Position numbers and translations under genes: made by a program. From Streptomyces fulvoviolaceus (lineage in GTDB: Bacteria > Actinomycetota > Actinomycetes > Streptomycetales > Streptomycetaceae), in NCBI RefSeq assembly GCF_000718165.1, contig NZ_JOEY01000007.1:124001-188000 (forward strand): DNA of 64,000 bases. Reading direction: 5' to 3'. The notes beneath the pieces are model-generated. The model ran no database searches and was not told the DNA's origin. It saw nothing but the letters and a program-made list of their open reading frames with translations. How positions within the stretch are numbered: the first letter of the stretch is position 1; every line of letters starts with the position of its first letter. Positions 1-47,859 of the stretch are shown one piece after another.

Positions 1-2
1 GC

Positions 3-1907: not shown

Positions 1908-1934
1908 TCTGCCGACCGGCGCCGGTGGCGGACA

Positions 1935-4915: not shown

Positions 4916-5796
4916 TTCCCGTTGCTCCTCTCGCGGGCGCGTGCCACGGCCGCGGTGATCGCGCGCGACACCACGACGGAGGCGAGGTGCCGGCGGTAGG
5001 CGCGCGTGGCGTGCAGGTCGTCCTCCGAGGTCACCGAGGGAACGATCTCCTTGGCGGCCCTGGCGATGTTCTCCTCGGTCGGGGCCTCACCGATCAGTGC
5101 GCTCTCCACCGCGGAGGCGCGGACCGTCGTGTCGGAGATACCCAGGACGCCGACGGAGACGGAGGTGAAGCGGCCGTCCTCGTCGAGGTTCACCACCGCG
5201 GCGGCGCCGGCGAGCGCAAGGTCGCCCACGCGCCGGGCCACCTCCACGAAGCCATGGCCCGCGGTCCACGGCGTCACCGGGTAGCGGATGGCGACGAGGA
5301 CCTCCTCGGGCTCCAGGGCCGTGGTCATCCAGCCCTGGAAGAAGTCCTGGGCCGCGATGGTGCGCGTGCCCGACGGCCCTTGCACGACCACCGTCGCGTC
5401 GAGTGCCACCGCCGTGCACGGCAGTTCGGCAGCGGAGTCGGCGTGCGCCAGGCTGCCGCCGACCGTGCCGCGGTGCCGGTTCTCGATGTGGCCGATGTAG
5501 CCGGTGGCCTCCGGTAGCAGCGGGACCAGTTCGCCGACCAGCGGGTGGTCCTCCAGCTCGTACTGGCGAACCCCGGCGCCGACCTCCAGGATGCCGACCC
5601 GGCGCTCGATCTTCTGCAGGTCACCGATCTTGTTGATGTCGATCAGTGCCTCCGGCCTGGCAAGCCGCATGTTGAGCAGGGGGAGAAGGCTCTGTCCTCC
5701 CGCGAGGACGAGGGAGTCGTTGCCGTACTCGCTCTTGAGCGCGACGGCCTCATCGACGGATTCGGGATCGCAGTACGTGAATGGAGGCGGCTTCAT
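4912..5796 (-). CDS. Molybdenum hydroxylase FAD-binding medium subunit
   Basis: A 294-residue FAD subunit of the CoxM/CutM type. The FAD-binding motifs AGGQSLLPLLNMRL (about residues 33-46) and TVGGSLAHADSAAELP are intact, and the C-terminal CO_deh_flav_C-like part follows (SVSVGVLGISDTTVRA). It is the first gene of the three-gene operon, so the promoter should lie just upstream of 5796 in the decayed region. No adjacent regulator or XdhC-type maturation gene is visible, so cofactor insertion must rely on genes elsewhere. Confidence 0.93.
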   Translation of the reverse strand: MKPPPFTYCDPESVDEAVALKSEYGNDSLVLAGGQSLLPLLNMRLARPEALIDINKIGDLQKIERRVGILEVGAGVRQYELEDHPLVGELVPLLPEATGYIGHIENRHRGTVGGSLAHADSAAELPCTAVALDATVVVQGPSGTRTIAAQDFFQGWMTTALEPEEVLVAIRYPVTPWTAGHGFVEVARRVGDLALAGAAAVVNLDEDGRFTSVSVGVLGISDTTVRASAVESALIGEAPTEENIARAAKEIVPSVTSEDDLHATRAYRRHLASVVVSRAITAAVARARERSNGK

Positions 5797-5996
5797 CGCC
5801 TGTCCTTGGTTGCGGCTCCTGGGGAAGGAGCAGGTGACCAGGCCCGGAGCCGAGGTCGGCTGCGGACGGTTACCCCGAGATTGCGTCGCGCGGTTCGTCA
5901 GGTGATTGTGGGTGCTCCACAGGCTCCGAGACGGTTCATACGCGGATGCCCATGGGCCCTCCGGCCCTGGGCGGGGTCCGAGCCATGCGCGGGTGT

Positions 5997-6280
5997 TCAG
6001 GGGCAGTCATCAAGGTTCACGACGATGGCCTCCTGTGTGCTGTGTACGACGCACATCCACACCGGCCCGGTGTCACTGCCGTTCTCCTTCTAGTGCACCA
6101 CACCTGGCGCAACGACGACGAAGTGTCCCGGAACGCTCGCGGACCTGGTCCCAGCCGGTCGCCGACCCACCGACGGCCGACGCCGCCGAGCACGTACAGG
6201 GCCGTTTCGGGCTCGCCGTGATGGTGACGCCTGTCTTCACACCCACCGAGAGCACGACGGACAGTCCCCGGATCCCCGTC
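5997..6280 (-). pseudogene. Degraded cupin-domain protein
   Basis: Cupin motifs occur in three different minus-strand frames. HHHGEPETALYVLGG (metal-binding motif 1) and GRRWVGDRL are in one frame, PGHFVVVAPGVVH (motif 2) lies in a second frame and runs straight into a TAG, and WMCVVHSTQEAIVVNLDD, a typical cupin C-terminus, is followed by the natural stop at 5997-5999. The order and spacing match a small single-domain cupin, so this is one gene broken by at least two frameshifts and a stop. It is divergent from the plus-strand remnants to its right. Confidence 0.68.
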
Positions 6281-6370
6281 TTCTGCCTGCTCACAGCGCC
6301 AGAAGTCGAGTGTGGCCTTGGCGCGGGAACAGCGACGCGCGATGGCCGCCGTGGCTGCCGCTTTGGCCAC

Positions 6371-34293: not shown

Positions 34294-34317
34294 GAAGGCG
34301 ACGGCAGACGGTCATTC

Positions 34318-35763
34318 GCCTTGGTAGAGGCGGGGCAGGTCGATCAGTTGGACCGTGGGGTCGTCCTTGGCGAGGTGATGCAGTTCGTCGGTGAATCCGG
34401 TGCCGCTGAAGCAGTGCAGCCGCGTTGCCTCGATGGCCGTGCCGCGTGTGGTCAGGAGGGTGCGGATGTGCCGGAGGCGTTCCAGGTGGCCGACCCCCAT
34501 CGTGTCGTTCCACTGTGCTTCGCCGATGGAAAGCAGCGTTTCGCGGCCGCCGTCGGTCTCGCCGTGGACGGCGACGTCGACTTCGTGGCTGGTCTTGGCG
34601 GCGGGGTCGTTGACGATGCCGCTGGCGACCCGCGTGACCTGGCCGCCGTGGGTGTCGGGCGCGGCGTGCCAGCGGGCCCATTCCCGGCAGACCTGCTCGA
34701 AGTGCGGGCCGACGACCTTGCTGCGGAAGGTGGACTGAGCGCGCCGCCATACATCGGGCGCCCGCCCGGGGCGTTCCAGATCGCCCCAGGACGGACGCAT
34801 GACCGCGTGGTAGAAGGTGACGAGCGGTTCGGCGATGCGGTAGGCGGAACGGTTGCGGCGAAAGGCGTCCGCTTCGTGGGTGATCATGCCAACGTCCTGG
34901 AGAACGCCGAGCGGGTGGGCGAGGTCGGTGGATTTGCGGCCGAGGTAGTCGGCGATGCCGCCGCGTGCGGCGTTGCCCGCGGCAATGGCGGCCAGTACGG
35001 AGTGGTAGAGCGCGGTGTCGTGGAGTTCGGGTTCCTCGGCGAGCAGGTAGCGGGCTTCGCGGAACAGGGGGCGGGCCGGGTTGAGGACGGCGCGGGTGAC
35101 CCAGGCGTCGAAGTCGTCCGGGTCGGCGGGGGTGTCGCCCTGGGTGAACTCACGGCGGTAGGCGGGGGTGCCACCGACGATGGCGTTGGTGAGCAGGGCA
35201 GTGCGCGGGTCGGTGATCTGCCAGAACTCGGCGGCGAGGCGGAAGTCCAAGGTGGGGACGACGAGTTCGAGGCCGGCGCGGCCGCGCAGCGGGGCGTTGC
35301 CGGACAGGAGCTTGCCCATGAATGACAGTGCGGAGCCGCACAACAGCAGGCGTACGGGGGTGTTGGTGTGCTGGGCGGCGGGGTCCAGGGCGCGCTGGAT
35401 GATCGAGGGCAGGGAGGGGGAGGCCTTGGCGAGGAAGGGGAATTCGTCGATGACCGCCACGGTGGGACCGCCCGCGTCGGCGATCCGCATGAGCTCGGTG
35501 ACCGCCTCGTCCCAGTGCGTGAAGCGGAACGGGGTGGGCTGACCGCGATACCGAGCCAGGGCCTCGCCGAACTGGCGCAGGGCGTCCGCCTCGGTGGTCT
35601 CGGTGGCGGTGAACATGAAACCGCCACCGGCACGGGTGACCGCGTCGAGCAGGAAGGTCTTGCCCTGACGGCGACGGCCGGAGACCACTCCGAGCGTGGC
35701 CCGCGGACCGGGCAAGGCGGCGAACCGAGTCAGCTCGGCCCACTCGAAGTCACGGTCGAACAT
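34318..35763 (-). CDS. Archaeal-type ATPase with C-terminal DUF234-like (PD-D/EXK) domain
   Basis: An approximately 481-residue protein. The AAA-type ATPase has Walker A SGRRRQGKTF, Walker B VAVIDEFPFL and sensor LLLCGSALSFMGKLL. A winged-helix-like middle (YLGRKSTDLAHPLGVLQDVG) and a nuclease-fold end follow, with HEVDVAVHGE and LLSIGEAQWN; the usual D...ExK core has Gln instead of Lys, so cleavage activity is doubtful. Family members are often linked to mobile or defence-related DNA. The ATG at 35763 is chosen; a GTG at 35781 is an alternative. Very AT-rich DNA lies upstream (35790-35830), unlike the rest of the window. Confidence 0.8.
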
Positions 35764-35999
35764 CTCAGCAGGCTTGTCCACAGCACCCCTGACATATATA
35801 GGTGCAGTTATTATATCTTGGTTTATTGGTCGCCACAGGTGCCGGTTCCAGTCCTGACTTAGCACACGCTGCCACCTCCCCCGTGACTCGACCCGGGGGC
35901 TGTGAGACGTTCAGCGCGGCGAGTGTCGCACGGTCCGCGTCGGCCTCCGGAAGCTTGCCCCAGGTCTCCGGGCGGAGGTACGTGCCGCACTCCTCGGCG

Positions 36000-36280
36000 G
36001 GTTTGTCCTCCTGGTGTCCCGCGGAGCACTTGGCCGCCCGGCACAGAATCTAGCGCTCCAGTTCCAGCTCGCACGCCTGCCCAGAGCGGCGATCTCGGCG
36101 TCTCTGTCCGCCTCCCCCCTTCATCACCAGCGTCCAGGCCCCTCGACGGCCTGATCTACAGGCGCAGCGTCTCGTGATCCACCCCCAGGCCTTTGGTCGC
36201 GGCCGCCACCGGGCACCCAGGATTGGGGCGGTACAGCGCGACGGCATCAATTCGGAACACAGCCGAGTACTTGTGGGACC
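36000..36280 (-). pseudogene. IS3-family transposase OrfA remnant
   Basis: The minus strand reads KYSAVFRIDAVALYRPNPG, then AAATKGLGVDHETLRL and a TAG, which matches the N-terminal helix-turn-helix of IS3 OrfA proteins (EFRADAVALYR...VAxDLGVxxETLRxW). Further on, in another frame, AEIAALGRRACELELER, a stop, then ILCRAAKCSAG matches the OrfA leucine-zipper end (ELxRERDILRRAAKxFA). OrfB is absent. It is a decayed insertion sequence between the ATPase gene and the tRNA-Thr repeat. I see nothing else in 35764-35999 beyond the AT-rich promoter-like stretch. Confidence 0.65.
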
Positions 36281-36477
36281 CCAACAGGAGCTCCTGGTCG
36301 CTGGATCTTCATGGACTCAGGGTTCAGGGCAGCTGCGGTCGGGGAGAAGCTCCGCACTCATCGTTGCTCGCACACAGGAACCGATGCGCGGCCTGCTTAT
36401 TGGCTGTTTCGACGACGGACCCCAGCCTCCGGCTTGCGGACTCCCGCAGGAATTCAACAGCGGAATCACCACCCACT

Positions 36478-36502
36478 ACAAAAGACCAGGTCACAGACCT
36501 GG
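36478..36502 (-). terminator. Hairpin with T-run next to tRNA-Thr repeat (second copy)
   Basis: CCAGGTC, ACA, GACCTGG (36486-36502), followed on the minus strand by TTTTG. It resembles the terminator at 36585-36621 and is followed to the right by two tandem GCGCTCCCC boxes, the same arrangement as the degenerate copy at 6371-6433. Confidence 0.5.
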
Positions 36503-36584
36503 ATCACCGAATCCCGATGCGCTCCCCTTGCGCTCCCCTCCTCGGACGTCCACCCCGCAAGCTGACCAACCATCAGGGAGCAAC

Positions 36585-36621
36585 ACAAAAGACCAGGTCA
36601 GAGAGCATCTGACCTGGTCTC
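36585..36621 (-). terminator. Terminator of tRNA-Thr fragment A
   Basis: A 13-bp perfect stem (AGACCAGGTCAGA with TCTGACCTGGTCT) and a 5-base loop, followed on the minus strand by TTTTGTG. It directly follows the 3' end of the tRNA-Thr fragment, as a native tRNA terminator would. Confidence 0.75.
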
Positions 36622-36624
36622 AGC

Positions 36625-36669
36625 TGGAGCCGCCTTCGGGATTCGAACCCGAGACCTACGCATTACGAG
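36625..36669 (-). repeat. Left copy of 45-bp direct repeat: 3' end of tRNA-Thr(CGU), att-like
   Basis: On the minus strand it reads CTCGTAATGCGTAGGTC, then the T-arm TCGGGTTCGAATCCCGA, then AGGCGGCTCCA: anticodon loop with CGU, T-arm and acceptor 3' strand of a tRNA-Thr. The 5' half (acceptor 5' strand, D-arm) is absent, so it is not a working tRNA. It is identical over 45 bp to 46213-46257 in the same orientation. Half-tRNA direct repeats are the standard trace of tyrosine-integrase elements. Confidence 0.85.
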
Positions 36670-36945
36670 GCCACGAGTGATCATGCCGACTGGTGGCGGA
36701 TGGTGCTGCGGGATGCTGTTTGGCCTGATCAGACCGCATGCGCCGTAATCGACGCTGGTACCTGGTGCTGCACCGTCCAAAGGCGTCCGGCCACCCCTTG
36801 GCCGCCCCGGGCCACCAACGCTGCACCTCAGCACTTACACATAGCAGTTGTCGGTCTTCGACAGACCATTCAGAGTGACGCCCAGCTCGGGAAGCGCCTC
36901 ATGAGAGCTTGGCTCGGTCCCTTGCCCGGCATGCGAAGCTCTCCA

Positions 36946-37932
36946 TCAGCGGCGCAAGCCCGGGGTGGCCGAGCTGCCCGGCAGCGGAGTGCGCGCCGGC
37001 CCTCCGGTGAGTACGTCCCGGATGTTGTCCACCGCGAGGTCCACCATTGCGGCCCGCGTGGTCTCGGTGGCCGAACCGATGTGCGGAAGCGTGATCACAT
37101 GGGGCTCCCCGGCCAGCGGGGAGAGGTCACGTCCCATGGGTTCGCGTTCGAAGACGTCCAGACCCGCCGAGTGGATGGCCCCGGCGCGCAGTGCCCGTAC
37201 CAGGGCGTCCTCGTCGACGACGCCACCGCGCGAGGTGCTGACGAGGGTGGCGGTGGGCTTCATGGCCGCCAGTTCGGCAGCGCCGATGAGGTGACGCGTC
37301 TGCGGGGTGAGGGGGACGTGCAGCGAAACGACGTCGGCCTCGGCGAGGAGGGCGGGTAGGTCCACGGACCTGGAGAGGGTGTCGTCGGGTGCACTCGGGT
37401 CGTGGTGGAGGAGCCGCATGCCGAAGCCCTGCGCACGGCGCGCCACCGCTCGTCCGATCTGGCCGTAGCCGATCACGCCGAGCGTGGCACCGTGCACGTC
37501 CAGGCCCAGGTAGTCGTCCATCCGGAACAGGTCCCACCGACCGGCGGCCAGTGAGTCGCGTGCCGCGCCGAGCCGTCTGCGCGCCATGAGGATGAGCGCG
37601 AAAGTGAGGTCGGCGGTGGTCTCGGCGAGAACGCCGGGGGTGTGGGTGACCACGACACCGCGTTCGGCCGCCGCGTCCCGGTCGACCACGTCGTAGCCCA
37701 TGCTCGCCAGCGCCATGACGCGCAGCGTGGGCCCGGCCGCGTCCAGCAGTGCGGCGTCCACCCGGTCGTTGCCCAGGGCCAGGATCGCGCTCACGCCCCT
37801 CGCCAGTACGGCCAGATCCGCCGGACCGGGACTGCCCGTGCCCGCCCAACCCACGACCTGGGCCTGGGATTCCAGGCGGGCGAGACCCCCGCCGGGGAGG
37901 TCCGCCCGGGTGGTGAGCACACGCTGCTTCAT
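36946..37932 (-). CDS. D-2-hydroxyacid dehydrogenase (glyoxylate/hydroxypyruvate reductase-like)
   Basis: A 328-residue NAD(P)-dependent dehydrogenase. Visible are TLGVIGYGQIGRAVARRAQ (nucleotide fold), STSRGGVVDEDALVRAL (Arg), DVFEREPM (Glu) and LPHIGSATETTR (His), so the catalytic triad is complete. It would interconvert a 2-oxo and 2-hydroxy acid in the island pathway. The ATG at 37932 is chosen because GGGAG precedes it by 7 bases and the frame upstream lacks homology. It lies downstream of and in the same direction as the LysR gene, so the two may be co-transcribed. Confidence 0.88.
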   Translation of the reverse strand: MKQRVLTTRADLPGGGLARLESQAQVVGWAGTGSPGPADLAVLARGVSAILALGNDRVDAALLDAAGPTLRVMALASMGYDVVDRDAAAERGVVVTHTPGVLAETTADLTFALILMARRRLGAARDSLAAGRWDLFRMDDYLGLDVHGATLGVIGYGQIGRAVARRAQGFGMRLLHHDPSAPDDTLSRSVDLPALLAEADVVSLHVPLTPQTRHLIGAAELAAMKPTATLVSTSRGGVVDEDALVRALRAGAIHSAGLDVFEREPMGRDLSPLAGEPHVITLPHIGSATETTRAAMVDLAVDNIRDVLTGGPARTPLPGSSATPGLRR

Positions 37933-38031
37933 CTGTTTCTCCCGGTGACGTCGATTCGCGAAAAAGCTAGTCAGCACGCATCCGGGGGGCAAATAGGCGT
38001 TTTACATGACGCCATCGAAAACTGGAATGCA

Positions 38032-38949
38032 TTACGTTGAGGTGTCACCTTCACCGAATTCCGTGATCAATTCATGGAACAGGTCGTGCACGGCGAGCGC
38101 GGGCTCCGACAACGGTTGATGGTCGGAGGTACACAGGGACAGTTTGACCTGGATCGCCGGGTCGGCGATCCGCCGTACCACCAGATTCCGCACGTCGAGG
38201 ATCGCGCGCGCCGCGGACCAGGGCAGGACCGTCGCCCCGAGGTCGGCGCCCACCGCGCTGACCAAGGTCAGGACCGACTCGATCTCACCGACCACCTTGG
38301 GTTCGAGCGAGGCGTGCTGGAACGCGGCGTCGACGACCTGCCTGATGGTGTGGATGCGGCTGGGCAGCAACAGGCCGACACCGGCCAGCTCTTCGAGGGG
38401 GACGTCGCCGTCGCCGGGTGGCACGACTCCGCCCGGCGCGGCGATCAGGAACAGGTCCTCGGTGCGCAGCGGCTCGAACTGCACGCCCCGCAGCGGCCCG
38501 GCCCCGTAGATGAACGCCATGTCCATACGGCCGGTCATGATCGCCTCGCTGATCACGCCGCCGAAGTTCTCGTTGATGTGCAGCAGGATGTCGGGGTAGC
38601 GCTCGCGCACGCTCCTGAGCAGCGGCAGCGCGAGCGCCGCGCCCATGCTGTAGGGGGCAAGCCCCACCGAGACGCTGCCCGCGGGTGCCCGTCCGGAGAC
38701 GTCGACCGCAGCGTGCGCGAGGTCGATCTGGCGCAGAATGAGCTGCGCGTGACGGTACAGCGCGCGGCCGGCCTCGGTCGGGGCGATGCCGCGCTTGCTG
38801 CGGATCAACAGCTGCTGCTTGAACTGGGCTTCCAGCGCCGAGAGTTGCTGACTGAGCGCCGGCTGCGCGATGTGCAGGATGTCGGCCGCGCGCGTGATGC
38901 TCCCGGCATCCACGATCTTTACGAACGAGTAGAGACGCCTGGTGTCCAT
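38032..38949 (-). CDS. LysR-family transcriptional regulator
   Basis: A 305-residue regulator. The N-terminal winged HTH is MDTRRLYSFVKIVDAGSITR then ADILHIAQPALSQQLSALE; the effector domain follows (SVSVGLAPYSMGAAL, GRMDMAFIYG). The N-terminus resembles the Nac/Cbl group of nitrogen and sulfur regulators. It is divergent from the pxpABC operon across 273 bases containing a TGCGT-N8-ACGCA palindrome, the usual arrangement for LysR activation of the opposite operon. The ATG at 38949 fits the family start; the longer upstream frame is not conserved-looking. Confidence 0.9.
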   Translation of the reverse strand: MDTRRLYSFVKIVDAGSITRAADILHIAQPALSQQLSALEAQFKQQLLIRSKRGIAPTEAGRALYRHAQLILRQIDLAHAAVDVSGRAPAGSVSVGLAPYSMGAALALPLLRSVRERYPDILLHINENFGGVISEAIMTGRMDMAFIYGAGPLRGVQFEPLRTEDLFLIAAPGGVVPPGDGDVPLEELAGVGLLLPSRIHTIRQVVDAAFQHASLEPKVVGEIESVLTLVSAVGADLGATVLPWSAARAILDVRNLVVRRIADPAIQVKLSLCTSDHQPLSEPALAVHDLFHELITEFGEGDTST

Positions 38950-39042
38950 GTGCGGGCCTTCCACGGGGCGGAGCCTCATGGTAGGCGCGAGGCCGTCCGG
39001 CGGACCTTGGCGTGCGCGCACCGGGTCATAGCCAACGGCGAT

Positions 39043-39060
39043 TGCGTCACACACAACGCA
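39043..39060. promoter_or_regulatory. Candidate LysR binding site before pxpA
   Basis: TGCGT, eight bases CACACACA, then ACGCA: a perfect 5-bp inverted repeat in the divergent region between the LysR gene and pxpA, about 95 bases from the LysR start and 163 from pxpA. Its form and place fit a LysR recognition site. The rest of the 273-base region is comparatively AT-rich with no other clear signal. Confidence 0.45.
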
Positions 39061-39222
39061 TATTTGCCGCCCCCGCGCCTTCCGATTACGTTCACCGAAA
39101 CGCGATTTCCCCGGTCACTCGACCGCACGGACCGCTTGTCCCACGGGAATTGTAACGACGTAGTTAATTCCCCTTTACGGGCGCCGTTTTCTTCTTCATT
39201 CACCCGGTATCCGGAGGACGTC

Positions 39223-40005
39223 ATGACGCACATGGTTGATCTCGTGGCCGACCTCGGCGAGGGGTTCGGCACCTACACCATGGGCGATGACGAGGCCCTC
39301 CTCGACGTGCTGACTTCGGCCAACATCGCGTGCGGCTTCCACGCAGGCGACCCGCGCATCATGGACGCCACCGTCCGCCACTGCGTGGAACGCGGCGTGG
39401 CCGTGGGCGCCCACCCCAGCTTCCCGGATCTCGTCGGGTTCGGCCGCCGCGCGATGGACCTGACACCGGACGAGGTCCGCACCGACGTGCTCTACCAGGT
39501 GGGCGCGCTCCAGGCGTTCGCCGCCGCGCACGGCACCCGCGTACGCCATGTGGCACCGCACGGCCGGCTCGGCAACCTGGTCGCGACCCGGCCCGACTAC
39601 GCGCAGGCCGTGACCGACGCGGTCGCCTCGCTGGACCCGTCGCTGATCGTGCTGGCGCAGGACGGCGAACTCGCCGACGCCGCCCGCGCCCGCGACCTGC
39701 GGGTGGGCATCGTCGGGATCGCCGACCGGGCCTACCGCGACGACGGCACGCTGGTGCCGAGAAGCGAGCCCGGCGCGGTCATCCACGACGAGAAGGAGAT
39801 CGCCGAGCGCACGATCCGCATGGTGACCGAGGGCGTCATCCGCAGCGTCGGCGGCCGTGACCTCCCCGTCGACTGCGACACCGTACTGCTGCACGGCGAC
39901 ACCCCGGGTGCCATCGCCCTCGCCCACCGCGTGCGCGAGGACCTGCTCGCCGCGGGTGTCAAGATCGCCGCCCTGGTCGACGTACTCGACCACAAGGCCG
40001 CCTGA
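39223..40005 (+). CDS. pxpA: 5-oxoprolinase subunit PxpA (LamB/YcsF family)
   Basis: A 260-residue TIM-barrel-like subunit of the ATP-dependent 5-oxoprolinase. Signatures are VADLGEGFGTY, SANIACGFHAGDPRIMD, GVAVGAHPSFPDLVGFGRR and VDCDTVLLHGDTPGA. With PxpB and PxpC it opens 5-oxoproline (pyroglutamate) to glutamate using ATP; paralogues act on other lactams. GGAGGA lies 6 bases before the ATG at 39223. It is the first gene of a plus-strand operon whose next genes follow by 1 base or overlap. Confidence 0.92.
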   Translation: MTHMVDLVADLGEGFGTYTMGDDEALLDVLTSANIACGFHAGDPRIMDATVRHCVERGVAVGAHPSFPDLVGFGRRAMDLTPDEVRTDVLYQVGALQAFAAAHGTRVRHVAPHGRLGNLVATRPDYAQAVTDAVASLDPSLIVLAQDGELADAARARDLRVGIVGIADRAYRDDGTLVPRSEPGAVIHDEKEIAERTIRMVTEGVIRSVGGRDLPVDCDTVLLHGDTPGAIALAHRVREDLLAAGVKIAALVDVLDHKAA

Positions 40006-40006
40006 C

Positions 40007-40747
40007 ATGGACGGCAGCGAGGTCACTCCGGACGGCGGCAGCGTCGTCATCGTGGACTGCGGCGACTCGGCCGTCGTGGCCAAGGCCGTCGGCATGGACG
40101 CCGAGCGCGCCTGGCAGGTCGTGCACGCCCTGGCCGACGCGCTCGACGCCATACGCCTCGACGGAGTGCACGGCATCGTGCCCACGTACGACTCGCTGCT
40201 CGTCGAGTTCGACTGCACCGACACCGACCACGCGACGGTACGACGCGTCCTGCGGCACGAGGCCGACCGGCTCGGCACGGGTCCGGTACGGCCCTCCAGC
40301 ACGCGGCGGTTCGTCGTCCCGGTGGTGTACGGCGGCGAGTTCGGCCCCGATCTGCCCGTCGTCGCCGAGCAGTTGGGGGTGAGCGAGCGGGAGGTCGTGG
40401 AGCTGCACTGCGGTGCGGACCTCACCGTCCGCTGCCTCGGCGCACCGGCCGGCGCTCCCATGATGGACGGCCCGGCGTTCCCCAGGCCGGTGCCGAGGCT
40501 GGCGTCGCCGCGGACACACGTGCTGCCCGGATCGGTCGCGGTGGCCGGGCGGCAGGCCGTGATCTGCCCGATGCCGTCGCCCGGCGGCTGGCCCCTGCTC
40601 GGTCGCACTCCCCTGCGCGTCCTCGAGGACCTCGACGCCGACCCGCTGACGGCGTACCGGCCCGGCGACACCTTCCGCTTCGTACCGATCGCACCCGAGC
40701 AGTGGGACGACCACGCGGGCCGACCCCTGGCGGCGACGCATGGCTGA
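40007..40747 (+). CDS. pxpB: 5-oxoprolinase subunit PxpB (KipI/allophanate hydrolase subunit 1 family)
   Basis: A 246-residue AHS1-domain protein; typical stretches are DGVHGIVPTYDSLLVEFD, VPVVYGGEFGPDLPVVAEQL and the signature SPGGWPLLGRTPLRV. PxpB and PxpC form the ATP-binding and phosphorylating part of the lactamase. The ATG at 40007 is 1 base after the PxpA stop. It overlaps PxpC by 8 bases, so production is coupled. Confidence 0.92.
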   Translation: MDGSEVTPDGGSVVIVDCGDSAVVAKAVGMDAERAWQVVHALADALDAIRLDGVHGIVPTYDSLLVEFDCTDTDHATVRRVLRHEADRLGTGPVRPSSTRRFVVPVVYGGEFGPDLPVVAEQLGVSEREVVELHCGADLTVRCLGAPAGAPMMDGPAFPRPVPRLASPRTHVLPGSVAVAGRQAVICPMPSPGGWPLLGRTPLRVLEDLDADPLTAYRPGDTFRFVPIAPEQWDDHAGRPLAATHG

Positions 40748-41792
40748 CACCCTCACCATCCATCGGGCCGGCATGGCGTCGGTGCAGGACCTGGGCCGCT
40801 TCGGACGCTCCCGCTACGGCCTCCCCGTCAACGGCGCCCTCGACCAGCACTCCGCCCGCGTCGCCAACGTGCTCTGCGGCAACGACGAGGGCGCGCCGCT
40901 GCTGGAGATCACCGCACTGGACTTCAGCTGTACGCCCTCGACCGACGTACTCGTCGCGGTCACCGGCGCGCCCGCCGACCTGACCGTCGACGGCGTCGTA
41001 CGACCGCAATGGGAACCCCTCTCCGTACGGTCCGGCGAGACGATCCGCATCAGCGGCATCCGGCATGGCATCCGCGTCTATCTGGCCGTGCTCGGCTCGG
41101 TGAACGCCCCTTCCCTGCAAGGCAGTTGCGCCCCCGACACGATCCTCGGCTTCGGCCGCTCCCTGCGCGACGGCGACGAGCTCGGCCTCCAGCGGCACTG
41201 CCCGCCCGTCGACCACCCGGAGTTCCGCATCCCGCTGTTCCGGCTGCGCGCACCGGCCCACCACTTCCCCACGCTGTGGACGATCGACGTGACCGACGGC
41301 CCCGACCTCACCGAGTTCGGTGACACGGCCGACAGGCTCTTCCGTTCGGAGTTCACGGTGAGCCCGCAGAGCAACCACATCGGACTGCGGATGGCCGGTT
41401 CTTCCCCCGGTGACGTCCCCAGGCGAGTCGCCACCGGCGAGGTCCTCTCGCGCGGCGTCCCCGTCGGAGCCGTCGAGGTCCCCGCGGGCGATGAACTGCT
41501 CGTCCTGCACCGCGGCCGCGGCGTCACCGCCGGCTATCCCGTGCTCGCGGTCGTGACCGCCACCGGCCTGTCGGCCCTCGGCCAGGTCGGACCGGGCCAG
41601 TCCGTCCGCTTCCGGCGCCGGACCGTCGCCGAGGCGGTGGCCGCCCACCGCGCCCAGCGCGGCGCCGTCCACGCCCTCAAGAACCGGGTGCGCACCGTCT
41701 TCGACGTCCTGCGCATCCCCACAAGCCCCGCACGCACCGTCAGCCCCGTCCCCACTCCTCATCACCTGCCAGCAGACAGGAGAACGTCATGA
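40740..41792 (+). CDS. pxpC: 5-oxoprolinase subunit PxpC (KipA/allophanate hydrolase subunit 2 family)
   Basis: A 350-residue AHS2-domain protein. It starts with the family pattern GMASVQDLGRFGRSRYGLPV then NGALDQHSAR and contains SNHIGLRMAG and GYPVLAVVTATGLSALGQVGPG. It completes the PxpABC complex. The C-terminal 40 residues (VRTVFDVLRIPTSPARTVSP) go beyond the usual end. It overlaps the MFS gene by 4 bases (ATGA), which ties transport of the substrate to the lactamase. Confidence 0.92.
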   Translation: MADTLTIHRAGMASVQDLGRFGRSRYGLPVNGALDQHSARVANVLCGNDEGAPLLEITALDFSCTPSTDVLVAVTGAPADLTVDGVVRPQWEPLSVRSGETIRISGIRHGIRVYLAVLGSVNAPSLQGSCAPDTILGFGRSLRDGDELGLQRHCPPVDHPEFRIPLFRLRAPAHHFPTLWTIDVTDGPDLTEFGDTADRLFRSEFTVSPQSNHIGLRMAGSSPGDVPRRVATGEVLSRGVPVGAVEVPAGDELLVLHRGRGVTAGYPVLAVVTATGLSALGQVGPGQSVRFRRRTVAEAVAAHRAQRGAVHALKNRVRTVFDVLRIPTSPARTVSPVPTPHHLPADRRTS

Positions 41793-43105
41793 GTACCGTG
41801 GCCGCTCAGCCGGTGCCAGGCACCGTCGATCCGAGAACAGCGCGAAAAGTCACCCTCGCCGGATGCGTCGGCATCTTCGCCGAGCTCTACGACAACGGCA
41901 TCTTCGGCTTCATGGCCGGCACCCTCGCCGTCGTCTTCTTCCCGAACACCGACAACGCGACCGCCGTCCAGTTCGTCTTCCTCGGCTACGCCGTCTCGTT
42001 CTTCTTCCGCCCCCTCGGCGGGATCATCTGCGGCCACCTCGGCGACCGCATCGGCCGCCAGCGCATGCTCGTCTTCGTCATCATGCTGATCAGCGTCGCC
42101 ACGGCGGCGATCGGCGTCCTGCCGACCTACGCGAGCATCGGCATCGCGGCCCCCGCCCTGCTCATCCTGCTCCGCGTCGCCCAGGGCTTCTCGGTCGGCG
42201 GCGAGGCCTCCGGCGCGATGAGCTTCCTCGCCGAGCACGCCCCCGAGGGCAAGCGCGGCCTCTACACGAGCTACGCCCAGATCGCCTCGTTCCTCTCCCT
42301 GCTCACCGGCACGCTGATCGCCGCCGCCATGACCAGCGGCCTGGGCGCGGACCGCATGGAGTCGTGGGGCTGGCGTATCCCGTTCCTGCTCGCCGTCCCG
42401 CTCGGCATCACCGGCATCTACATCCGCAAGCGGATCAGCGACACCCCCAACTTCAACCGCCTGAAGGAAGAGGGCGGCCTGTCGAAGAACCCGCTCAAGG
42501 AGGCCTTCTCCTCCGCCGAACACCGCCGCGCGATGCTGCTCGCCCTGTTCATCCCGCTCATGAACGGCTCCGGCTACTACGTCCTGTTCAGCTACATGCC
42601 GACCTTCATGAACACCGAGCTGCACTTCAGCAAGGTGCAGGGCCTGCTCGTGACCGCGACCAGCCTGGTGGCCATCTGTATGGCGATCCCTTACATGGGC
42701 CGCCTCTCCGACCGCGTCGGGCGCAAGAAGGTCCTCTCGGGCGCCGCGATCGCCATGGCCGTCGTGGGCATCCCCTGTTACCTGCTCATCGGCACCGGCA
42801 GCGTCCCGCTCGCCATCCTCGGCGCCTGCATCATGGCGGTCGTCTTCGCCGGCCACACCGGCGTCATCCACATCCTGCTCGTCGAGCTCTTCCCGACCCG
42901 GGTGCGCTACTCCGCCTACGGGCTCGGCTACAACGTCTCCGCCGCCCTCTTCGGCGGCACGGCACCCCTGCTGATGACGTACCTCATCGACAAGACCGGC
43001 AACACCAACATGCCCGCCTTCTACGCGGTCCTCACCGCCCTCGGCACGCTCATCGCGGTGTCCCGGGTGCAGGACAGGGCACACCTGCCGCTGCGCGACG
43101 CATAA
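41789..43105 (+). CDS. MFS transporter, metabolite:H+ symporter type
   Basis: A 438-residue carrier with 12 predicted helices. Motif A occurs twice, as GHLGDRIGRQRML (loop 2-3) and GRLSDRVGRKKVL (loop 8-9). The N-terminus VGIFAELYDNGIFGFMAGTL and the central RVAQGFSVGGEASGAMSFLA are typical of the MHS family (KgtP, ShiA, ProP), which imports carboxylates. It probably brings in the acidic lactam or a related dicarboxylate. It is translationally coupled to pxpC. Confidence 0.9.
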   Translation: MSTVAAQPVPGTVDPRTARKVTLAGCVGIFAELYDNGIFGFMAGTLAVVFFPNTDNATAVQFVFLGYAVSFFFRPLGGIICGHLGDRIGRQRMLVFVIMLISVATAAIGVLPTYASIGIAAPALLILLRVAQGFSVGGEASGAMSFLAEHAPEGKRGLYTSYAQIASFLSLLTGTLIAAAMTSGLGADRMESWGWRIPFLLAVPLGITGIYIRKRISDTPNFNRLKEEGGLSKNPLKEAFSSAEHRRAMLLALFIPLMNGSGYYVLFSYMPTFMNTELHFSKVQGLLVTATSLVAICMAIPYMGRLSDRVGRKKVLSGAAIAMAVVGIPCYLLIGTGSVPLAILGACIMAVVFAGHTGVIHILLVELFPTRVRYSAYGLGYNVSAALFGGTAPLLMTYLIDKTGNTNMPAFYAVLTALGTLIAVSRVQDRAHLPLRDA

Positions 43106-43135
43106 CCCCCCACATCTCTCTAGGAGTACATCCAC

Positions 43136-43879
43136 ATGCCCTTTTCCGACTACAGGACTGCTCTGGTGACCGGTGCCTCCACCGGAATCGGAGCGGTGGT
43201 CGTCGAGCGGCTCGCCAAACAAGGGCTCCAGGTCCACGCCGTCGCCCGTAACGCCGAGCGCCTCGACGACCTCGCCCGGCGTACGGGCTGCACCCCGCAC
43301 GCGATCGACATCACCGACACCGCCGCCCTCACCGAGACCCTGCGGGGCCTGAAGGTCGACGTCCTGGTCAACAACGCCGGGGTCTCCCGCACCGGGAACA
43401 TCCTCACCGCCGACGAGTTCGCCGTCGACGAGCAGATCGCCGTCAACATCCAGGCCGTGCTGCACCTCGTACGCCTGGTCATGCCGGGGATGGTGGAACG
43501 CGACCTCGGGCACATCGTCAACATCAGCTCGATCGCCGGCGTCTACAACTTCGGCGGCAACACGATCTACCACGCCACCAAGGCGGCCGTGCACACGCTC
43601 TCCCGTCAGCTCCGCGTCGACGGATACGGCCGCCGGATCCGCGTCACCGAGATCTGCCCGGGCCGGGTGGAGACGGAGATCTTCGGCCGTCTCCTCGGCG
43701 ACATGGAGGAGGCACAGCGGCAGTTCTACGACGGCTACGAGTCGCTGAAGCCGGAGGACATCGCCGACGCCATCGAGTTCGCCATCGACTCACCGCGCCA
43801 CGTGAACATCGGGCATGTGGAGATCCTGCCGACGTTCCAGGTGCCGGGCGGCCTCAACTTCGAAAGGCGGGCCGACTGA
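43136..43879 (+). CDS. Short-chain dehydrogenase/reductase (YdfG-like)
   Basis: A 247-residue SDR with cofactor motif TGASTGIG, structural NNAGVSRTG, and catalytic Ser-Tyr-Lys in NISSIAGVYNFGGNTIYHATK. The sequence around PGRVETEIFGRLLGD and the C-terminus are similar to NADP-dependent 3-hydroxy acid dehydrogenases. It may oxidise a hydroxyl group on the ring-opened product. A TAGGAG-type site precedes the ATG; the stop overlaps the aminotransferase start by one base (TGATG). Confidence 0.88.
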   Translation: MPFSDYRTALVTGASTGIGAVVVERLAKQGLQVHAVARNAERLDDLARRTGCTPHAIDITDTAALTETLRGLKVDVLVNNAGVSRTGNILTADEFAVDEQIAVNIQAVLHLVRLVMPGMVERDLGHIVNISSIAGVYNFGGNTIYHATKAAVHTLSRQLRVDGYGRRIRVTEICPGRVETEIFGRLLGDMEEAQRQFYDGYESLKPEDIADAIEFAIDSPRHVNIGHVEILPTFQVPGGLNFERRAD

Positions 43880-45084
43880 TGGGGACGACGACCGCCCAGC
43901 GCGTACGGCGCATCAAGCCGTCACCGAGCACCGCGGCCGCCCAGCGCGTACGCGAGCTCAAGGCCCAGGGTCTCGCCATCCTCGATCTCACCGTCGGCGA
44001 ACCGGACTTCGACACCCCCGACCATGTGAAGGCAGCCGCGATCGAGGCGATCCGGCAGGGCGAGACCAAGTACACCCCGGTCAACGGAACACCAGCGTTG
44101 CGCGCCGCCATCACGCACAAGCTGGCGGAGCGCCACGGACTCCCCTGCTCCGACGACCGGATCACCGTCGGCGGCGGAGCGAAGCAGGTCATCTTCCTCG
44201 CGCTGATGGCCACGCTGGACGCGGGCGACGAGGTGATCATCCCCGTTCCCTACTGGGTGTCCTATCCGGACATGGTCCTCGCCAACGACGGCACGCCGGT
44301 CGTCGTCGACTGCCCGGAAGCGGACGGCTTCAAGCTGACCCCGCAGCGCCTGGAGGCGTCGATCACCGACCGGACGCGCTGGGTGATCCTCAACACCCCG
44401 AGCAATCCCACCGGCGCCGCCTACACCATCGGCGAACTCAAAGCCCTGGCCGACGTGTTGCTCGCCCACCCGCACGTCCAGGTCCTGACGGACGAGATCT
44501 ACGACGAGATCTGGTACGAACCGGGCCAGGTCCCCAGCCTCGCCGCCGCCGAACCACGCCTGACCGACCGGGTGTTCCTCACCAACGGCGTCTCCAAGAG
44601 TTACGCCATGACCGGCTGGCGTATCGGCTACGGAGTCGGCTCCGCCTCGCTGGTGGCCGCGATCAACACCCTGCAGTCGCAGATCTCGTCGTGCCCGTCG
44701 TCGGTCAGCCAGGCCGCCGCCGCCGCCGCGCTCACCGGCGACCAGGCTTTCGTACGCGAGTGTGTCGCCGTCTACCGCAGCCGCCGCGACGTGACACTGA
44801 AGCTGATCAACGACATCCGGGGCCTGTCCTGCACCCCACCCAGCGGCGGCTTCTACGCCTTCGTCAACTGCGCGGATGTACTCGGAAAGCAGACCCCCAC
44901 AGGCGAAGTGATCGGCACGGACGAGGAGTTCACCCGCTACCTGCTGGAGTCGCAGCAGGTAGCGGTGATCCACGGCGGCGCGTACGGCGCACCGGGCTAC
45001 TTCCGCATCTCCTTCGCCACCTCGACCGACGTCCTCACCGAGGCCTGCGAGCGCATCGCCCGCGCCTGCGCGGCCCTGTACTGA
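43879..45084 (+). CDS. Class I/II aminotransferase (aspartate aminotransferase-like)
   Basis: A 401-residue PLP enzyme. Key stretches are LDLTVGEPDFDTPDHV, GETKYTPVNGTPALRAAI, NTPSNPTGAAY, the PLP-lysine in TNGVSKSYAMTGWRIGY and a final GYFRISFATS with the substrate-carboxylate arginine. It would convert an amino acid, perhaps a substituted glutamate released by PxpABC, to its 2-oxo acid. It sits between the SDR and the aldolase in one operon. Confidence 0.9.
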   Translation: MGTTTAQRVRRIKPSPSTAAAQRVRELKAQGLAILDLTVGEPDFDTPDHVKAAAIEAIRQGETKYTPVNGTPALRAAITHKLAERHGLPCSDDRITVGGGAKQVIFLALMATLDAGDEVIIPVPYWVSYPDMVLANDGTPVVVDCPEADGFKLTPQRLEASITDRTRWVILNTPSNPTGAAYTIGELKALADVLLAHPHVQVLTDEIYDEIWYEPGQVPSLAAAEPRLTDRVFLTNGVSKSYAMTGWRIGYGVGSASLVAAINTLQSQISSCPSSVSQAAAAAALTGDQAFVRECVAVYRSRRDVTLKLINDIRGLSCTPPSGGFYAFVNCADVLGKQTPTGEVIGTDEEFTRYLLESQQVAVIHGGAYGAPGYFRISFATSTDVLTEACERIARACAALY

Positions 45085-45093
45085 AGGAGCGAC

Positions 45094-45768
45094 ATGATCC
45101 GCGTCAACACCAAGTTCGACCGGCCGGACCCGGCGCTCGTCAAGCAGCTGAGCGCATACTCCGCCGCCACCATCCACGAGGCACAGGGCCGCCTCGGCGC
45201 ACTCGACTCGACGATCAAACCGGTCGACCCCGGCATGTCCCTGTGCGGCCCCGCGTTCACCGTGCGCTGCGCGCCCCGCGACAACATCATGCTGCAGGTG
45301 GCCATCGCCCACGCGCAGCCCGGCGACGTCATCGTGGTCTCGGCCGGCGAGTACGCGGAGGCCGGATCCTTCGGCGACGTCCTCGCAAACGCCTGCGTGG
45401 CCAAGGGACTTGGCGGCCTGGTCACCGACACCGGGGTCCGCGACACGCAGGACCTGCGCGCACTCGGCTTCCCGGTGTTCTCCTACAGCGTCTGCATGAA
45501 GGGCACCGTCAAGGAGACCGTCGGGCCGATGGCCGAGCCGGTGCTGATCGGCGGCGAGATCGTTCACCCCGGAGACGTGGTGCGCGCGGACGCCGACGGC
45601 GTGGTGGTCGTACGGCGCGAGGACGTGGCGGACGTCATCCGCAAGTCGCAGGAGCGGATCGAGGCCGAGGACGCCTACATCGCCGCCTACCGCTCCGGAA
45701 AGAGCACGATCGAGGTGAGCAACCTGGCCGCCGTGCTGGAAGCAAAGGGGCTGGCCATCGACGCGTAG
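45094..45768 (+). CDS. RraA-like class II pyruvate aldolase (HMG/CHA aldolase family)
   Basis: A 224-residue protein of the RraA fold. It keeps the D-x20-R-D pattern described for 4-hydroxy-4-methyl-2-oxoglutarate and 4-carboxy-4-hydroxy-2-oxoadipate aldolases: GDVLANACVA, then KGLGGLVTDTGVRD, with exactly 20 residues between the first Asp and Arg-Asp. Such enzymes split a 4-hydroxy-2-oxo acid to pyruvate and also decarboxylate oxaloacetate. Beside the aminotransferase, an aldolase role is more plausible than RNase E regulation. It is the last gene of the island operon. Confidence 0.83.
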   Translation: MIRVNTKFDRPDPALVKQLSAYSAATIHEAQGRLGALDSTIKPVDPGMSLCGPAFTVRCAPRDNIMLQVAIAHAQPGDVIVVSAGEYAEAGSFGDVLANACVAKGLGGLVTDTGVRDTQDLRALGFPVFSYSVCMKGTVKETVGPMAEPVLIGGEIVHPGDVVRADADGVVVVRREDVADVIRKSQERIEAEDAYIAAYRSGKSTIEVSNLAAVLEAKGLAIDA

Positions 45769-46169
45769 TGCTCCTGGCGACCGGCTGACCGGAACGCGAC
45801 TGAGACAGACATGGGCAGAGGCCGGGCCGCGGAACGGTCTGTTCCTGATCCCCGCCGGGCGCCACGAACCATGCACGCAGACCAGCCGCATTGTTGAGCC
45901 CCCACAACAGCGGTAAGCCCATCGCAACCTCCGCCAACGCAACCCCCGACCCGCTCCGTGCACCGCCGCTGCACGGATGGCCACCCGTTGGCCACCCCTC
46001 CCCCTGCCGATACTGACCAGCGCATCAGTAGCGCTTCAGAAAACCGCACGTCAGCAGCACTATTGGGAGCCAGCACACCCCCACCGAACCCAAGGAGTGA
46101 AACCGCTGGCCTACGCATTCCATGCACAGCCCGGAGAAGCCCTCGGCACGCACATTCCAAGGCCAACCC
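45769..46169. other. Non-coding right flank inside the island
   Basis: No convincing gene. A GTGGCC/TTGGCC-rich stretch (about 45975-46005: GATGGCCACCCGTTGGCCAC) resembles one just inside the left end (about 36780-36825, GGCCACCCCTTGGCCGCC). Paired arm-type sites near both att copies would be expected for an integrase, but this is inference. Confidence 0.35.
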
Positions 46170-46209
46170 AATAAAGAAACCGCAGGTCAGAGGCCTGACC
46201 TGCGGTTTC
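46170..46209 (-). terminator. Terminator of tRNA-Thr fragment B
   Basis: A 14-bp perfect stem, AAACCGCAGGTCAG with CTGACCTGCGGTTT and loop AGGC, followed on the minus strand by TTTATT. It sits just after the tRNA 3' end, as at fragment A, and shares the CAGGTCAG/CTGACCTG core with it. Confidence 0.78.
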
Positions 46210-46212
46210 CCA

Positions 46213-46257
46213 TGGAGCCGCCTTCGGGATTCGAACCCGAGACCTACGCATTACGAG
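46213..46257 (-). repeat. Right copy of 45-bp direct repeat: 3' end of tRNA-Thr(CGU), att-like
   Basis: Identical over 45 bp to 36625-36669. Here the match to the expected tRNA-Thr extends 2-3 bases further into the anticodon stem (GCACTCGTAATGCG). Beyond that, the DNA to the right does not continue as the 5' half of a tRNA, so neither copy is an intact gene and the real tRNA-Thr must lie outside the window. Confidence 0.85.
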
Positions 46258-46479
46258 TGCACCGGCCCCAGACCACGAACACTCCACCGCAGACCACCTC
46301 CTACCTCACGGCAGTTACAAACTGCGGGGTAGAGCGACAGCGTGAACTCCCATCGACCCGAACCAGCTCAGAGGCGTCATCCGCCCCTCCGCTCCAGGGA
46401 CTTTTCAGGGACTTTCAGCTCTGCCTGAGGGACTTCCGAGGAACGTTTCGCCGCCTAACACGACAAGCCCCCGAAAGAC

Positions 46480-46515
46480 CGGAAAGGGCCTCCGTCGCAG
46501 ATCAGAGGCCCTTCC
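46480..46515 (-). terminator. Hairpin downstream of rnpB
   Basis: GGAAAGGGCCT and AGAGGCCCTTCC form a strong stem 26 bases after the rnpB 3' end on the minus strand. It is the probable transcription terminator of the RNase P RNA; the T-run is weak. Confidence 0.6.
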
Positions 46516-46540
46516 CAAGGCAAAGCCGCAGGTAGCGGCA

Positions 46541-46945
46541 GACGAGTCGGGCTGTACGCCGGGTTCTGTCGCCCGGTCGCCTCGCGGCGGCCGGGGAGAC
46601 GGCCATCCATCTAGGGCCGGCGTTGCCGCCGGCCTCGTGCGGTCTACCCACGGACTCGGGCGGGCAGCCCTCGAACGTCCGCGCAGAAACACCGGGGTGT
46701 TTCCTTTTGACCTTGCTCCGGGTGGGGTTTACCTAGCTGCCCAGGTCGCCCTGGGCACTGGTGGTCTCTTACACCACCGTTTCACCCTTACCCAGCGCCG
46801 AAGCGCCGGGCGGTTTGTTTTCTGTGGCACTGTCCCGCGGGTCACCCCGGGTGGCCGTTAGCCATCACCCTGCCCTGTGGAGCCCGGACGTTCCTCGGGG
46901 AGCCCTCCTAGAGGGGACTCCACGCGGCCGTCCGCCCGGCTCGTC
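46541..46945 (-). ncRNA. rnpB: RNase P RNA (class A)
   Basis: The catalytic RNA of RNase P, which trims tRNA 5' ends. The ends pair as helix P1: GACGAGCCGGGC at the 5' end with GCCCGACTCGTC at the 3' end. Conserved blocks in order are GAGGAACGTCCGGGCTCC, AGGGTGATGGC, CCACAGAAAACAAACC, GGTGTAAGAGACCACCA, AGGTAAACCCC, TAGATGGATGGCC and CAGAACCCGGCGTACAG. A length of about 405 nt is normal for Streptomyces. Its first 88 nt overlap, on the same strand, the 3' end of the EamA transporter gene. Confidence 0.95.
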
Positions 46946-47859
46946 TGCCGTGTCGACCATGTTACCGGGCGATCGGGGCAGACTGGTTCCGCCGTTGCGC
47001 GGGCCGGGCCCGCCGTGGCCAGCACCGAGCCCGCCAGGATCAGGGCGAAGGCCGCCCCGATCCCCAGAGTCAGCGGCTCGTCCAGGAACACGGCGCCCGC
47101 TGCCACCGCCACCGCCGGATTGACGTACGTGAACACCGTCGCCCGGGTCGGGCCGACCTCCTTGATCAGCTCCAGGAAGGCGATGAAGGCGAGCGCGGTG
47201 CAGATCACGCCCAGGCCGGCCAGGGAGGCCAACACCTCGGCCGAGGGGACAGTGGAAGGCCAGGTCACCGCCGCCGCGGGGGCGTACACCACCGCCGCCA
47301 GCGCCAAGCACGGCGCCGTTAGCTGGAGCGACGGGACATCCTTCAGGTGGCGGGCGGCTATCAGCGGGGCCGTCGCGTAGCCCAGCACTGTCACGAGTAC
47401 CTCGGCCATCGACTTCACGTCCCCGCCGGTCAGGTGCGGGACCGTGAGGACGCCCACCCCGGCCAGCCCCAGTCCCAAACCGGTCACCCTCCGCACGCCC
47501 AGCTTCTCCGTATCGCCGAAGAAGCGGGCCAGGACCACCCCCACGATCGGTACGCCCGCGATCAGCAGCCCCGCTGTGGAGCTCGACAGGTGCCGTTCGG
47601 CGTCCGTCAGCGTGTACCAGGGGCCCATGATCTCGATGACCGCGAAGGCCAGCATCGCCTTCCAGTGGGTCCGGACCGCCCCCGTCAGACCGCCCTGCCG
47701 TATCGCGAAGGGGAGCAGGAGTACGGCGCCCAGCGCGCAGCGTGTGAACACCACCATCGACGGGGACAGGTCCGCTTCCATCGCCACCTTGATCAGCAGG
47801 TAGGGGATGCCCCAGACCACTCCCATCAGGGAGAACAGGAACCAGCCGCGTGCAGTCAT
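46858..47859 (-). CDS. EamA/DMT-family transporter overlapping rnpB
   Basis: A 333-residue exporter-type protein with about ten helices in two EamA repeats (GVVWGIPYLLIKVA, SSSTAGLLIAGVPIVGVVLA; FTYVNPAVAVAAGAVFLDEP). Such proteins export amino acids or other metabolites. The membrane part ends near residue 290. The final 29 residues (ending RPGSTGQGDG) are encoded inside the 5' part of rnpB, so this tail is dictated by the RNA sequence. It lies 18 bases after the AraC gene and is probably co-transcribed with it. Confidence 0.88.
   Translation of the reverse strand: MTARGWFLFSLMGVVWGIPYLLIKVAMEADLSPSMVVFTRCALGAVLLLPFAIRQGGLTGAVRTHWKAMLAFAVIEIMGPWYTLTDAERHLSSSTAGLLIAGVPIVGVVLARFFGDTEKLGVRRVTGLGLGLAGVGVLTVPHLTGGDVKSMAEVLVTVLGYATAPLIAARHLKDVPSLQLTAPCLALAAVVYAPAAAVTWPSTVPSAEVLASLAGLGVICTALAFIAFLELIKEVGPTRATVFTYVNPAVAVAAGAVFLDEPLTLGIGAAFALILAGSVLATAGPARATAEPVCPDRPVTWSTRQTSRADGRVESPLGGLPEERPGSTGQGDG

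Follow-up and report, generated by a model that had tools for sequence, protein, structure and literature searches.

A 9.6-kb catabolic segment between tRNA-Thr half-gene repeats in Streptomyces fulvoviolaceus resembles an integrase-less cargo cassette

The DNA analyzed here, a stretch of 64,000 nucleotides from Streptomyces fulvoviolaceus (the window), contains a 9.6-kb catabolic segment that lies next to rnpB, the RNase P RNA gene (46539-46943, minus strand; RF00010), and is framed by two partial copies of a tRNA-Thr gene. These putative attachment (att) cores, recognized by a repeat search and tRNA comparison, are located at 36625-36669 and 46213-46257 (both minus strand). They are 45 bp long, 100% identical and equally oriented, and start 9,588 bp apart. 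The core sequence corresponds to the anticodon loop and the 3′ half of tRNA-Thr(CGT), and both copies lack the 5′ half; at the right core the match to the intact tRNA-Thr extends 3 bp further (TGC). A hairpin is present to the left of each core, and the two hairpins differ from one another. The one directly before the right core (46177-46208, minus strand) was read by eye and folded, and is conserved among the related units described below. The other (36589-36621, minus strand) was obtained by a hairpin/terminator scan and folding and is assigned to the right end of the neighbouring unit on the left. Folded as DNA, the hairpins at 36589-36621 and 46177-46208 reached -14.6 and -19.3 kcal/mol, values equalled by none of 200 shuffles in either case; the latter was absent from the list of a terminator consensus scan. 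An earlier note on this DNA had described two identical half-tRNA copies at this distance, which held on re-measurement, and folding and tRNA comparison bore out its statement that each has its own hairpin and no 5′ tRNA half.

In the following, G-numbers are labels of the Streptomyces genomes compared (392 searched), G000 is the S. fulvoviolaceus genome, and C7 is the contig of the window. When up to 3 mismatches were allowed, a 43-bp core occurred three times in the assembly, namely in the two window copies on C7 and once on contig C9, and the C9 copy is the sole intact tRNA-Thr(CGT) gene of the three. No intact tRNA was found within the 64-kb window. The note had placed the tRNA-Thr beside rnpB, which proved incorrect: the intact gene is that on C9, where it has no second core and is adjoined by an integrase relic of the same family as the truncated integrase of G108 (see below).

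Nine genes lie between the cores, and the Pfam and NCBIfam families assigned to eight of them describe one coherent metabolic set, in agreement with the note. On the minus strand are genes for a D-2-hydroxyacid dehydrogenase (36946-37992; PF02826, PF00389) and, as a 340-aa open reading frame (ORF), for a regulator (38032-39054) that is LysR-like by eye, without a family search, and is kept in the cluster. The plus strand carries genes for a LamB/YcsF, PxpA-type 5-oxoprolinase subunit (39220-40005, start approximate, with a longer ORF from 38074), a PxpB-like carboxyltransferase C/D domain (39857-40747), a PxpC-like carboxyltransferase A/B domain (40740-41792), a major facilitator superfamily (MFS) metabolite transporter (41789-43105) and a short-chain dehydrogenase (43136-43879), all assigned by Pfam/NCBIfam. 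These are followed by genes for a class I/II aminotransferase (43879-45084; NF004769, above cut-off) and an RraA-like 4-carboxy-4-hydroxy-2-oxoadipate aldolase/oxaloacetate decarboxylase (45094-45768; NF006731, above cut-off). The cargo is predicted to degrade a 4-substituted 4-hydroxy-pyroglutamate stepwise to 2-oxo acids, a route in which lactam opening of the PxpABC type would be combined with an aminotransferase and an aldolase of the 4-carboxy-4-hydroxy-2-oxoadipate type.

Among the eight genes scanned with Pfam and NCBIfam, the 340-aa regulator being outside the scan, there were no transfer or replication families, and Pfam revealed no phage structural or packaging families among the scanned genes. 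The tyrosine integrase family PF00589 had no match on C7, and a tyrosine-integrase profile built from the integrases collected in this study had none in the segment or on C7. A relaxed tblastn search of the 9.6 kb for an integrase relic gave nothing convincing, and the absence of an integrase inside, as stated in the note, was confirmed by all three approaches.

To trace the cargo, we searched for close relatives of the aminotransferase (E ≤ 1e-100) and found them in 20 of the 392 genomes, G000 included. Loci were read for 18 of the 19 other genomes, two of the stretches ending at a contig edge. One of the 18 loci is bounded by cores: in G108, all nine genes are located between a perfect core and an intact tRNA-Thr(CGT). 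The cargo of G000 and G108 is 92.2% identical over 9,039 bp, whereas the flanking chromosome shows 79.8% identity beside rnpB (9,983 bp) and 81.6% beside tRNA-Thr (11,815 bp). The match also takes in the left core and the adjoining arm (36578-36815, 75%). Between cargo and tRNA-Thr, G108 carries a truncated, frame-shifted tyrosine integrase, and an IS3-like fragment, recognized by eye, lies inside the unit beside its left arm. Abutment on an intact tRNA, by which tRNA-linked islands are recognized, is seen for the G108 copy and not in the window. The other 17 loci had no core match by blastn with window positions 36000-47000, two of them being cut by a contig end. The best 80 matches with organism names included no Streptomyces, though the source genome or very near kin may be missing from this list; the closest among the 80 was Amycolatopsis tucumanensis, with all nine genes in conserved order and no core in 21 kb.

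Since the cargo is more similar than the backbone and occupies two different sites in G000 and G108, it appears to have been moved horizontally as a unit, and these comparisons mark the 9.6 kb as a mobile unit of its own. The note's view of the repeats as the trace of site-specific movement of the tyrosine-integrase type, with the segment behaving as one unit, is supported by the G108 comparison. The pattern it had named as contrary, the same content fixed at one place in close relatives, was not seen in the genomes searched.

The ends of the segment recur in other genomes with other cargo. The left end carries a conserved P arm of 123 bp (TTACGAG..GATCAGA..TCCAAAGGCG; 36663-36785, plus strand), which begins inside the core and was defined by an exact search and an alignment of 25 units. 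The exact arm pattern occurred at 64 sites in 48 of the 392 genomes, and the reversed pattern, used as a control, at none. We read 25 complete units with a P arm from 24 genomes (13 and 12 in two batches), complete units being sought within about 20 kb. Their sizes range from 1.4 to 18.4 kb, and the arm is 123 bp long in most of the 25 loci. In the alignments, the left ends were conserved in all 25 units, and right ends, aligned for 20 of the 25, were conserved as well. The G068 unit has cores with 7-8 mismatches and that of G244 a left flank that is not tRNA. An arm-type direct repeat pair (GGCCACC-N4-GGCCGCC; 36789-36806, plus strand) has a set spacing to the left core, and pairs of this type occupy the position in 20 of the 25 units (control windows, mean 0.2). 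A second pair (GGCCACC-N4-GGCCACC; 45979-45996, plus strand) precedes the right core; pairs of this kind are present in 18 of the 25 right ends (control mean 1.1), and in 16 of these the distance to the core is 221-243 bp. A hairpin precedes the right core in the units read. Many right ends also contain, about 95 bp before the right core, the motif GACCTACGCATT-n-ATGCGTAGACC, which repeats the anticodon stem of the core in inverted form and is degenerate in the window (46104-46135). The palindrome-like stretch at 46108-46131 was rejected as a fold, as it was no better than shuffles in this window.

The arm meets the core at the identical edge of the anticodon loop in all 25 aligned units. This fixed join and the core and arm which the G000 and G108 copies have in common beyond their genes argue against a movement of the cargo by homologous recombination between the 45-bp cores or by insertion sequences, independent of an integrase. 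Such a route would fit the IS3-like fragment in G108 and the 17 Streptomyces loci that hold the cluster without a core match, and we regard it as unlikely.

Among the 300 possible pairs of units, only 17 shared a protein (E ≤ 1e-10), and ten of these pairs are accounted for by five units encoding giant proteins. The cargo family scan covered some genes of some units and revealed a LamG-domain giant protein, an SNF2 helicase, parts of Wadjet JetC/JetD, a molybdopterin dehydrogenase, radical SAM and ATP-grasp enzymes and a sulfate permease. The giant proteins occur as pairs (about 2,100-2,300 plus 1,060-1,450 aa) with about 30-90% identity at loci L268, L287, L290, L291 and L297, and a LamG domain was present in the one second giant protein scanned with Pfam. 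Tandem cores, i.e., two within 60 kb on the same contig and strand, were present in at least 31 of 150 genomes, G000 included, a count that omits pairs on different contigs or farther apart. The left end had no match in 50,697 phage records; in IMG/VR one contig carries the arm, and 12 plasmid records matched, 6 of them beyond the core region. Large linear plasmids of Streptomyces sp. NBC_01369, S. cellulosae and Streptomyces sp. NBC_01320 showed 72-84% identity to core plus arm, and the plasmid loci L302, L303 and L304 have this likeness without the exact arm pattern. On the NBC_01320 plasmid, the core and arm-like sequence is followed by VapB, a PIN nuclease and a Wadjet set.

We then analyzed the units for integrases. 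With the profile from the collected integrases, an intact integrase was found in none of the 25 P-arm units and a relic in one (G108). As the units of G000, G108 and G056 and two units of G022 were known before the arm motif was noticed, the remaining 20 represent the fairer test, and none of these contained an integrase. Eight units with other arms included four with an integrase of at least 460 aa and one with a fragment; the difference between P-arm and other-arm units gave Fisher p values of 0.0017 and 0.0013, in a sample that is not random. A PF00589 search of 14 genomes placed no integrase inside units among the matches listed (to about E 5e-11). This is weak support, because the list ends near that value and misses an integrase ORF beside the G314 unit which the profile from the collected integrases detected. 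Three genomes, G097, G314 and G333, have an integrase ORF directly adjoining the outer side of a cassette core.

The missing integrases could also be explained by ordinary decay: once-autonomous actinomycete integrative and conjugative elements (AICEs) or integrative and mobilizable elements (IMEs) would each have lost their integrase independently and become classic cis-mobilizable elements (CIMEs), with no dedicated cassette system behind them. The truncated integrase that G108 retains beside the cargo is what decay would leave, integrase ORFs are present in the unclosed same-arm elements of G138 and G064, and decayed Streptomyces AICEs with flanking repeats have been described (PMC9513070, excerpt). 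Decay should, however, leave shared backbone remnants and varied ends, whereas both ends are conserved in 25 units of mostly unrelated cargo; moreover, the profile from the collected integrases detected no integrase in the 20 units gathered once the arm motif had been recognized. We judge independent decay to be a serious possibility, though at somewhat under an even chance.

The right core of the segment lies 282 bp downstream of rnpB. With the exact pattern, a core at this place was found in 2 of the 392 genomes, G000 and G110. The right flank of this core is 93.6% identical between the two genomes over 485 bp, and the sequence to its left differs, a pattern that would be expected from repeated site-specific insertion at one secondary core. 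If the rnpB-side core were instead a fixed decoy or a regulatory remnant unrelated to insertion, its identical position and the similar flank would be accounted for; the differing left sides and its restriction to two genomes speak against this idea, which we consider very improbable. Even less credence is due to an assembly artefact in which a repeat at the tRNA half was collapsed or misjoined. The assembly is a draft of 263 contigs, yet the single 336-kb contig C7 spans both cores, the junction between rnpB and core is also present in G110, a single-contig genome, and G108 carries the same unit.

Further arms were located outside tRNA genes. In G088, G170 and G244, the arm is joined to sequence no more similar to the tRNA half than shuffles are (374, 521 and 732 of 1000 as good), and these junctions keep about 15 bp, CCTACGCATTACGAG or one change from it. 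The G088 arm (L264:1900-2230) lies about 180 bp downstream of rnpB and points away from it, thus representing a second case near rnpB; no tRNA core match for G088 was among the matches listed. G252 was rejected as an ectopic junction, being a degenerate tRNA half, and G138, for which 21 of 1000 shuffles did equally well, was not retained because its status is doubtful.

The conserved ends, the lack of an intact integrase in all 25 units and the few shared proteins indicate a non-autonomous, att-bounded cargo unit. We consider it highly likely that the 9.6-kb segment is such a cassette, similar to a CIME and moved by a tRNA-Thr(CGT) integrase from elsewhere; integrases encoded elsewhere probably move the unit. 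In the mechanism we propose, an element specific for tRNA-Thr(CGT) would supply a tyrosine integrase that, acting in trans or from a tandem neighbour, recombines the cores within the 7-bp anticodon loop (CTCGTAA). The unit would be excised as a circle, which would then insert at a matching core, normally that of the tRNA gene and here the ectopic core 282 bp downstream of rnpB. We infer the position of the crossover, the action in trans, the circle and the origin of the rnpB-side core by integration at a secondary site.

Several points weigh against this interpretation. The movement, including excision and the circle, is deduced from sequence. An intact cognate helper integrase was not identified in this assembly, and the unit may therefore be immobile now. 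The search span of about 20 kb favours small units, and for many arms the sequence examined contained no second core (8 of the 20 loci of one set). The units of G000 and G108 do not have the same right end. In the unclosed P-arm elements of G138 and G064, an integrase ORF is located 1 kb from the arm and 8 kb into the element, respectively, which means that autonomous relatives may exist. Finally, an unfilled rnpB-side site was not found, G110 having the same core with other DNA on the left; a lectin-like end in G091, recognized by eye, was the only hint of such a site. The G138 integrase ORF (L276:8623-10764) is 44.6% identical over 294 aa to the G110 integrase located beside a copy of the rnpB end (see below), and the G138 element, with a doubtful core, is a candidate autonomous relative.

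The region to the left of the segment resembles the cargo of other units. The gene left of the left core (34311-35865, minus strand) encodes an AAA-type protein with a weak AAA_22 match and a PADLOC candidate assignment (PDC-S27). It is 86.8% identical over 1528 bp to cargo of a G022 unit, compared to 80.8% for the chromosomes beside rnpB, and the G022a unit has a right end that matches the left hairpin together with the core at 83.9% identity over 87 bp. A third cassette-like block at 1-6347 (plus strand), recognized by its match to a G141 unit, encodes a SpoIIE-type phosphatase and a xanthine-dehydrogenase type cluster. With an identity of 96.2% over 7,601 bp, the block matches the cargo of that core-bounded unit, the chromosome beside rnpB being 83.8% identical. 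It begins 1,180 bp left of the window and has no core at its ends here. Given the matches to G022 and G141 cargo, the stretch next to rnpB contains three cassette cargos. The note had suggested a tandem array at a tRNA next to rnpB. The array part of this suggestion is supported by the gene related to G022 cargo, and the tRNA part is not supported, the intact tRNA being on C9 and the rnpB-side core ectopic.

The 3′ end of rnpB likewise occurs in several copies. The sequence at 46538-46563 (plus strand) recurs at C7:110661, 56231 and 52359, so that the last 23-26 bp of rnpB are present in four copies on C7, all in one orientation. In G128, which lacks the last ~60 kb, rnpB is followed by about 200 bp and then by sequence collinear with C7:106204 leftwards. 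Further copies of the rnpB 3′ end within 132 kb were found in at least 18 of 150 genomes, G000 included, a count that omits copies farther from rnpB or on other contigs; those among the matches listed are downstream of rnpB and share its orientation. One such copy in G110, 102 kb away from rnpB, has a 420-aa tyrosine integrase (L093:12045-13307) terminating at a distance of about 90 bp, and among the other rnpB loci scanned an integrase was found in G069 only. The genome encodes four serine recombinases (PF07508), none of them on C7, and blastp with these four had no hit in the rnpB-bounded segments examined. Judged by these repeats, rnpB appears to serve Streptomyces as an integration site, a role for which no report was found in the literature searched, partly as excerpts. 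Outside the window on its left, just inside the copy at C7:110661, lies a JetABCD (Wadjet type II) set (L018:7520-15865; C7:111520-119865), with a Replic_Relax gene and a gene of Mrr type behind it.

To place the segment among known systems, we compared it with published elements as far as excerpts of the sources describe them. CIMEs are cis-mobilizable elements derived from decayed integrative and conjugative elements (ICEs) or IMEs (PMC5704250), a Streptomyces example being TR1 (PMC8369830). Like CIMEs, the segment retains attL and attR as direct repeats (here the perfect 45-bp cores), stands in tandem with elements of the same site, and is devoid of integration genes and, in the eight of nine genes scanned, of transfer families. 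Mobilization by a co-resident or neighbouring element, as expected of a CIME, has circumstantial support in the comparison with G108. Unlike CIMEs, the units read here have a recurring arm and conserved partner ends, mostly unrelated cargo and almost always no integrase. Tandem integration at Streptomyces tRNA genes is known, and AICEs and defective AICEs at tRNA-Thr and tRNA-Arg resemble our case in their tRNA direct repeats, accretion, remnants between repeats and differing integrases among elements at one tRNA-Thr site (PMC9513070). In contrast to them, the units described here have a common arm, a feature the excerpt does not mention for those elements. The segment also differs from AICEs and ICEs in that it has no integrase of its own, its scanned ORFs show no family for replication or transfer, and it is located away from a tRNA gene.

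The ssrA islands of Dehalococcoides likewise carry metabolic cargo in tandem at an RNA gene, and 15 of them without an integration module were termed possible cis-mobilizable elements; they depend, however, on a serine integrase and ssrA rather than on a tRNA-Thr core and tyrosine-type integrases (PMC3146451). Clusters of attC sites lacking integron-integrases (CALINs) are similar in being arrays of cargo units with recombination ends and an integrase elsewhere, but differ in their ends, which here consist of a tRNA half and arms, and most of the units read here are multi-gene (PMC11389934). By the features tested, the segment is CIME-like and would work like an integrase-less cassette moved by the integrase of another element. 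The recurrence of units with standard ends and mostly unrelated cargo is new, as is an array lying ectopically beside rnpB; the literature searched, again partly as excerpts, revealed no comparable Streptomyces units lacking an integrase.

The occurrence of the same ends with mostly different genes in related genomes suggests that these streptomycetes exchange genes in the form of site-specific cassettes. Tentatively, and with rather less confidence than an even chance would warrant, we propose a Streptomyces tRNA-Thr(CGT) cassette system in which standard-ended, integrase-less units might be shuffled in trans among tRNA-Thr arrays, large linear plasmids and ectopic sites, e.g., downstream of rnpB. 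Its standard ends could be the tRNA-half core, the 123-bp P arm and a repeat pair on one side and, on the other, a right end that combines a repeat pair with a palindrome and a hairpin. Equally tentatively, its cargo might comprise catabolic operons, giant LamG-domain proteins, and defence-like and biosynthetic-type genes. If true, this system, built on a tRNA site, would correspond in function to integron cassettes and CALINs, and it would bear on the question of how large Streptomyces genomes gain whole operons. The rnpB 3′ end as a second site would add an essential ribozyme gene to the integration targets, and the standard ends would serve as a search key for cargo in metabolism, defence and natural products that integrase-based island finders miss.

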